Origin: Planctomycetota bacterium
GTDB taxonomy: Bacteria; Planctomycetota; JACQVV01; JASMLP01
Assembly (NCBI GenBank): GCA_030748635.1
Contig: JASMLP010000028.1
Coordinates: 24,633 to 88,632 of the forward strand
DNA: 64,000 bases
Direction: 5' to 3'
The notes under the pieces were generated by a model. That model ran no database searches and was not told the origin of the DNA. It was given only the letters and a program-made list of their open reading frames with translations. Below, one piece after another: positions 25,138-26,823 of the stretch; the stretch's first letter is position 1; the number at the start of each line of letters is the position of its first letter. The position numbers were made by a program, and so were the translations under genes.

Positions 25138-25167
25138 TTGAAGGCAATCTTCTGAACGGGATAGAAT
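25138..25167 (+). promoter_or_regulatory. Sigma-70-type promoter for the CHAT gene
   Basis: TTGAAG and TAGAAT separated by 18 bases. Predicted transcription start is near 25174, just before a short ORF at 25176. Confidence 0.55.
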
Positions 25168-25175
25168 GTTCATTC

Positions 25176-25262
25176 ATGGACTTGTGTTTCCAGGTGATCG
25201 TGACAGGGGCGGGTGGACGACACCCAATCCAACGTTGTTCTGCCTTCTTCTTTCAAGGTTGA
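25176..25262 (+). CDS. Possible 28-codon leader peptide upstream of the CHAT gene
   Basis: ATG at 25176 opens MDLCFQVIVTGAGGRHPIQR and ends TGA at 25262, 7 bases before the ATG at 25270 inside the CHAT reading frame. It lies about 8 nt after the -10 box of the predicted promoter, so it could be read from a leaderless message. It overlaps the GTG start at 25213 out of frame. It may equally be a chance ORF. Confidence 0.25.
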   Translation: MDLCFQVIVTGAGGRHPIQRCSAFFFQG

Positions 25263-26823
25263 GGTCTTGATGAGCGCTTTTGGCCTCGATGAAACTTACT
25301 ATCCGGATGAATCCACCGAGATCCTTTTTGGAGCTCATCGGGAAATTCGAAAACGAGTGGAGATGGTTTCCCCGGAGGTCTGGGTCGAGGGGAAACCCGC
25401 GTCGGTCCAGCTACGCGTTCTGCCAGAGGATGATGTCAAGGCGATGCGAGCCGAATTTACGATGCTCGGTCGGGCGGGAAGTGAATCGTACGAGATCCAG
25501 GTGTTTGTCGCTGCGCAGTCGGTGTCTGTCGAAGAGGATATGACCGTCGCCTCCATTCGGGTCGCTCGAGATGAAGAGCCGGCGGAGGTGAGCTGGGAGA
25601 TCACTCCGGAACGCTCCGGCCCGCTGCGAGTTCTTTTCAGCTTCTTCTGTCATGGAGGGTATGCCGGACGGATGGCTCTTGACGTCGAGGTTCAGAAGGA
25701 AGGGGAGTCGGCAGACTCCAGGACCCTCCAGGCGGAGATCTCGATTCGTCCCGCGGGCAAGGCTCCCGATCTATATCTGATGGTCGAACGATTTCCGGAT
25801 GGGGACTCAACCGATCTTTGTTATCACCTGTATTCTCCGATCGACTCCTTGACCTGCCATTATCAGGAGGCGGGCTCGATTCGGTACGAGGAAAGTGGTA
25901 GCCCGGAGTCCTGGCGACAGAAATTGTTTGCGCCCCCTCCCGAGGAGAGTGACCTGTCGGAAACCGTTCAGCATTACGCGCAAATCGGTCGCGATCTTTA
26001 CGATGCATTCTTTCCCAAGCCGCTGCAGAATCTTTACTGGGAACTCCGGGAGCGTATTCAGAGTATTCAGGTCGTATCTGGGGAACACGAGATCCCCTGG
26101 GAGGCGATCAAGCCGTATCGGACTCAGCCGGCATTCGAAGATCCTCACCTGGGAGAACGTTATGCCATAGCTCGGTGGTTTTCTGGCCCCGCTCCTTATT
26201 GTGAATTTCCTGTAGCCGAGGGCCGGGTCTTGTCGATTGATATCGGAAAAAGGGAAGAGTCCAGCCATAGCGATGCCCGTTTTCTCTCCGCCTTTTCACT
26301 GATCGAGTACAAAGATCTGGATAATAGCTTGAAAGGATTTCGCGCTTGGATGGAAGATATCAACGAACTCTGTTCGTTGCATATTTCGTGTCGAGGACCT
26401 TTCAAAGAGGCGGATTCGATGAAATCTCTTCCGTTCTCTTCCGGGGAGCGTATGGAGCCCGGTTCGATCAGCAGGGGAGTTGAATTGTCTTTTCTGAATC
26501 GACCTCTGGTTTTCATGAATTCGAGTGATACCGGTCATGGCGGAGGTGTGCCGTTGGATCCGGAGGTTTGGGCCCGAGCTTTTCTGCGTACGGGGGCTTC
26601 GGTGTTTACCGGCGCCATCTGGAGTGTCGAAGAAGATCTGGCGCATGAATTCGCGCGATCCTTCTACATGAACCTTCTCAATCGCCAGGTACTCGGGCAC
26701 GCGGTCCGTCTGGCTCGATTGGCAGTGAAGATGATCGGTTTGCGACGGGGTTCACCAGCCTGGTTGGCCTATGTGGTCTATGGTGATCCGGTCGCGGACG
26801 CCAATCCGGCTCGAATCCGATGA
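25213..26823 (+). CDS. CHAT-domain protein with apparently inactive catalytic dyad
   Basis: 536 residues from a GTG start; the ATG at 25270 has a better GAGG ribosome site and may be the true start. Residues about 1-180 are beta-rich and unrecognised. Residues about 300-536 resemble a CHAT caspase-fold domain: the final part PEVWARAFLRTGASVFTGAIWSV and WLAYVVYGDP is the family's C-terminal half. By eye, the HG catalytic position in LHISCRG is Arg394 and the NAC-x-x-G cysteine position in FMNSSDTG is Ser438, so both catalytic residues seem replaced. No partner protease target, TIR or STAND gene is adjacent. CHAT proteases act in prokaryotic immunity and signalling; this one may be a scaffold. 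Confidence 0.7.
   Translation: MDDTQSNVVLPSSFKVEVLMSAFGLDETYYPDESTEILFGAHREIRKRVEMVSPEVWVEGKPASVQLRVLPEDDVKAMRAEFTMLGRAGSESYEIQVFVAAQSVSVEEDMTVASIRVARDEEPAEVSWEITPERSGPLRVLFSFFCHGGYAGRMALDVEVQKEGESADSRTLQAEISIRPAGKAPDLYLMVERFPDGDSTDLCYHLYSPIDSLTCHYQEAGSIRYEESGSPESWRQKLFAPPPEESDLSETVQHYAQIGRDLYDAFFPKPLQNLYWELRERIQSIQVVSGEHEIPWEAIKPYRTQPAFEDPHLGERYAIARWFSGPAPYCEFPVAEGRVLSIDIGKREESSHSDARFLSAFSLIEYKDLDNSLKGFRAWMEDINELCSLHISCRGPFKEADSMKSLPFSSGERMEPGSISRGVELSFLNRPLVFMNSSDTGHGGGVPLDPEVWARAFLRTGASVFTGAIWSVEEDLAHEFARSFYMNLLNRQVLGHAVRLARLAVKMIGLRRGSPAWLAYVVYGDPVADANPARIR

Follow-up and report, generated by a model that had tools for sequence, protein, structure and literature searches.

A planctomycete CHAT-domain protein with both catalytic positions replaced, a probable pseudoprotease

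Proteins with a CHAT domain share the caspase-like fold and usually carry a catalytic His/Cys pair. One gene in a 64,000-nucleotide stretch of a Planctomycetota genome (contig JASMLP010000028.1; hereafter the window) encodes a CHAT protein in which these two positions read Arg and Ser. Does such a protein still cleave peptides, is it kept for some other purpose, or is the gene in decay? The reading we favour is that it belongs to the DUF7363-CHAT branch of caspase-like proteins, is catalytically dead and probably acts by binding.

An intact gene among housekeeping neighbours

The gene and the only transcription signal proposed for it are as follows:

25213..26823, + strand: pseudo-CHAT gene, 536 aa, GTG start, identified from the open reading frame and its translation, with typical codon usage
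25138..25167, + strand: weak promoter-like match TTGAAG-18-TAGAAT, sigma-70-like at 9/12 positions

The presence of the gene was confirmed as a single intact ORF of 536 codons, and an alternative start exists at ATG 25270 (Met20). Its 537 open codons compare with a maximum of 312 in 500 Markov-resampled sequences of the same composition. GC, GC3 and synonymous codon usage are like those of neighbouring genes, and the gene therefore looks long resident. A promoter of its own, as proposed in the first-pass annotation, is suggested by the one weak 9/12 match and by the arrangement divergent from etfB, and stays tentative; two sigma-70-like matches were seen versus 0.7 expected.

The source genome comprises 4.25 Mb in 217 contigs. 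Here the gene is divergent from etfB-etfA and convergent with an mlaDFE-type set (mla genes named from translations). No partner-like gene and no operon were found adjacent to it, and the neighbours read as housekeeping, so that the earlier description of a gene standing alone holds for this singleton between etfBA and the mla genes. In the one other genome of the same order the ortholog is absent; the genes upstream of etfB differ and include no CHAT protein. No close relative was found among 392 genomes sampled across the phylum, and a contig search of genomes with the window protein alone returned no relatives. Phages and viral contigs likewise gave none, so nothing points to a viral origin. 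PADLOC and NCBIfam gave no match to the protein.

Elsewhere in the same genome a C14 caspase is encoded (L189:231-1502, C78) whose FAGHGD and DCCYSG motifs read intact, making it a possible partner. The C-terminal part of this caspase contains two similar repeats around a 'RARIL...HYVGW'-type sequence. A second weak match to the CHAT profile (L055:1273-2616, C3) was considered as a CHAT paralog and rejected, as it reads as a gingipain-like C25 peptidase; this C25-like protein is lipoprotein-like and has intact SGHG and GAC motifs.

Domain architecture and the catalytic positions

The protein can be divided into three regions, with four residues of interest around the active site:

25363..25680, + strand: beta-sandwich, DUF7363-like (PF24063), residues 51-156, from alignment position and an all-beta model
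25765..25983, + strand: pre-CHAT region, residues 185-257, from alignments; a 'PDLTLLI' strand plus helices, common to the subfamily
25984..26802, + strand: CHAT (caspase-like) domain, residues 258-530, from PF12770, profile match and Foldseek; N-terminal limit mapped from the relative L101
26380..26382, + strand: His390, a conserved non-catalytic His in the 'LHF' strand, present in 59/59 relatives
26392..26394, + strand: Arg394 (CGA), replacing the catalytic His; the column is His in 58/59 relatives
26524..26526, + strand: Ser438 (AGT), replacing the catalytic Cys; the column is Cys in 59/59 relatives
26536..26538, + strand: His442, at a position that is Arg in 37/59 relatives; the sole His within 10 residues of Ser438

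The C-terminal CHAT assignment, called clear at first reading, is borne out. PF12770, the only Pfam family matched, covers residues 384-524 (E 3.9e-9; 36.8 bits versus a cut-off of 24), and a profile of the relatives, built without the window protein and without the other dyad-less protein described below, matches residues 284-528 with E 5e-37. The AlphaFold2 model, computed from 61 aligned sequences with four rows from plasmid records left out, has a mean pLDDT of 83 and a pTM of 0.86. Foldseek ranked Csx29/TPR-CHAT first (E 1.7e-10), followed by separase, SAVED-CHAT and DdvA, all of these being matches at the level of the fold, with low TM-scores and ~10-15% identity (TM-score 0.30-0.44 and 10-15% identity for Csx29/TPR-CHAT). 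Csx29/TPR-CHAT of the type III-E Craspase is thus the best solved fold for the protein, but it has TPR repeats, an active CHAT2 with His/Cys and a CRISPR link, whereas the window protein has no TPR match and sits among housekeeping genes.

The N-terminus had been described as an unrecognised beta-rich region. It is beta-rich in the AlphaFold2 model, in which the fold starts near residue 45; the N-terminal ~40 residues, modelled at low confidence, are probably disordered. The DUF7363 matches of five relatives fall on or within columns 51-156 of the window protein, and these residues probably correspond to DUF7363. Pfam itself gives no DUF7363 match, and the isolated N-terminal region aligned to DUF7363 by hhalign with E 8e-4 and a probability of 24% only, hence the name DUF7363-like. 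The same order of beta-sandwich, pre-CHAT region and CHAT is found in DUF7363-CHAT proteins of Chloroflexota, Actinomycetota, Planctomycetota and others (e.g. G236/L056 and Oscillochloris L101), and they share ~22-30% of residues with the window protein across as many as 430-470 positions. Many of these have extra N-terminal domains, often TCAD7, DUF7362 and DUF7379 placed before DUF7363, which the window protein lacks. Practically all of them keep His and Cys, whereas the window protein has neither.

The loss of the HG and NAC motifs was the central claim of the first reading, and it stands. Residues at the dyad were counted in a 61-protein alignment containing 59 relatives from many phyla, the other dyad-less protein being set aside. 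The placement of Arg394 in the His column and Ser438 in the Cys column agrees between two MAFFT alignments and the profile. Predicted secondary structure places 394 at the end of strand 388-394 and 438 near the end of strand 432-439, and in the AlphaFold2 model both residues occupy the ends of the two core strands, the places expected for His and Cys; profile alignment and structure prediction thus find the equivalences correct. One read error could not account for Arg394, since all His codons differ from CGA by more than one base.

Arginine is incapable of acting as a general base. In TPR-CHAT, mutation of C627 to Ser or Ala abolishes protease activity (PMC9729208), and activity is also abolished in Csx29 H615A/C658A (PMC10028731). 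On these two grounds, the Arg at one position and the effect of a Cys-to-Ser change at the other, protease activity is very unlikely, and we are confident that the protein is dead as a cysteine protease. As both catalytic positions are truly replaced, pseudoprotease is the best of the readings first offered.

Rarity, ancestry and rival readings

A four-sequence alignment used as query retrieved 65 relatives from named records. The wider survey of substitutions covered ~158 distinct CHAT domains spanning both positions. His and Cys are both present in 154 of these (two counted from split hits), His alone is lost in two (L105, L038), and both residues are lost in two, the window protein and a distant planctomycete FHA...CHAT protein from the genome G043. 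The set was picked by similarity to conserved CHAT sequence, and dead members are perhaps underestimated in it for that reason, although the dyad lay outside the two patterns that gave the 65 relatives from named records. In the two proteins with His alone lost, this residue is Ser (L105:3630-5882) and Thr (L038:8871-10595), respectively, and the Cys is kept.

The G043 protein (L034:8685-13160) belongs to the same phylum, also combines a DUF7363-like region with CHAT, and has likewise lost the dyad. It differs in its length of 1492 aa, its N-terminal FHA domain, the residues that replace the dyad (motifs read HLFAPMTF and VSVSPP) and its gene context. It has a long low-complexity middle, and its AlphaFold2 model reaches pLDDT 81 and pTM 0.83. 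The tree groups the two pseudo-CHAT proteins, both on long branches. When one was left out at a time, each fell beside the Chloroflexota proteins L095 and L099, with an SH-aLRT of 90 for the window protein and 15 for G043. The grouping looked like shared ancestry, but as both branches are long it speaks neither for nor against a common origin of the two losses. Among the nearest tree neighbours of the window protein, L095 (L095:2172-5900) joins clostripain (Peptidase_C11) and CHAT, two caspase-fold peptidases in one chain. Another CHAT protein related to the window protein lies on a plasmid island of Agrobacterium pTiCFBP5877 (L033), which encodes a metallophosphoesterase, three CHAT and two TIR proteins with a caspase-family protein adjoining.

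The end branch of the window protein measures 1.7-2.1 versus a median of ~0.45-0.5. This length fits a changed constraint following the loss of catalysis, and it is also what would be expected under the main rival reading, in which the function was no longer needed, the catalytic residues were lost and the gene is drifting. Such a relic would also be consistent with changes at Asp354, Val452, Ser514 and Ala516, positions that are near-invariant elsewhere, and with a singleton that lacks an operon partner and an ortholog in the one same-order genome. Recent decay is argued against by the long intact ORF, free of any stop or frameshift across 1.6 kb, and by the resident codon usage. The fold core is moreover kept in 38/54 columns of >=80% conservation, in line with the confident AlphaFold2 model. 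We therefore consider decay unlikely, and retention of the protein for a binding or regulatory role to be the probable course.

The active site shows an exchange of residues, with Arg394 in place of His and His442 in place of the Arg of 37/59 relatives. This exchange might be a coincidence, might compensate for charge, or might give Ser438 a base at a new place. It is quite improbable that the protein represents either a Ser438/His442 serine site, with Arg standing where the His used to be, or a planctomycete lineage of CHAT regulators without catalytic function that includes G043.

A rewired serine-based site, which the first-pass annotation had entertained, is itself very unlikely. It would use Ser438, which does hold the nucleophile position, with a relocated base, most plausibly the His442 four residues downstream. 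The Arg/His exchange is compatible with such an arrangement, and in inactive Csx29 the Cys+3 residue D661 comes close to the catalytic His (PMC10028731). Against this, the Cys-to-Ser form of TPR-CHAT is inactive even with its His present (PMC9729208), and none of the relatives compared has a site of this kind. Least probable is an active cysteine protease in which another Cys, for example Cys393 or Cys387, would be paired with His390 or His442. All four residues are present in the domain, but His390 is invariant also where the normal dyad exists, Cys393 is Cys in 23/59 dyad-bearing relatives, position 387 is mostly Asp or Gly, and 393, next to 394 on the strand, is expected on structural grounds to point its side chain away, so that the His390/Cys393 pair offers no rescue.

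A putative binding role and its place among bacterial pseudo-caspases

Under the preferred reading of a dead but retained CHAT protein, the window protein would be unable to cleave peptides and would act through binding. Contacts with a peptide or a partner protein may be made by the beta-sandwich together with the CHAT core, which is otherwise intact. The protein could serve as a signalling adaptor or, towards a caspase-like protease, as a decoy or dominant-negative, with the C14 caspase of the same genome as a candidate partner. It may plausibly be a scaffold, decoy or inhibitor; the narrower proposal that it inhibits some other caspase-like enzyme, or acts as its decoy, is tentative and less probable. 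For the inactive caspase domains found in ternary conflict systems, a dominant-negative or peptide-binding role has been proposed (PMC7159879), and by analogy this role may serve as the nearest model. The domains of the vWA-MoxR-VMAP ternary systems (PMC7159879) are also inactive, but they are fused to vWA in multi-gene systems, whereas the window gene is alone.

Rare as it is in close relatives, loss of the dyad is common across the caspase-like proteins of bacteria as a whole (PMC3501461, PMC6426788, PMC7159879). The dyad is intact in 84% of bacterial metacaspases and in only 64% of those of Planctomycetes (Asplund-Samuelsson et al., PMC3501461), with Ser the most frequent replacement of the Cys (PMC3501461). 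Pseudo-orthocaspases, mostly Tyr-Ser, account for 8.6% of bacterial orthocaspases (PMC6426788). These C14B proteins (PMC6426788) and the dyad-less metacaspases (PMC3501461) resemble the window protein in having lost both residues, in the Cys to Ser replacement and in their presumed inactivity. They belong, however, to the p20 C14 family and usually replace His by Tyr, whereas the window protein is a CHAT protein with Arg and has no Peptidase_C14 match. Csx29 itself contains a pseudo-caspase domain, CHAT1 (PMC10028731). Within the limited coverage of the literature consulted, no free-standing CHAT protein of the DUF7363-CHAT subfamily with both residues lost is described.

The immediate importance for defence biology is modest, because operon, partner and ortholog are all missing. 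Pseudo-caspase folds are established in bacteria, with the pseudo-orthocaspases, Csx29 CHAT1 and the ternary conflict systems, and the window protein is a rare further member. That bacteria repeatedly keep inactive forms suggests the caspase fold is useful as a binder besides being a protease. A match to CHAT should accordingly not always be annotated as a peptidase, and a free-standing CHAT protein without the dyad offers a clean subject for testing the use of the caspase fold as a binder.
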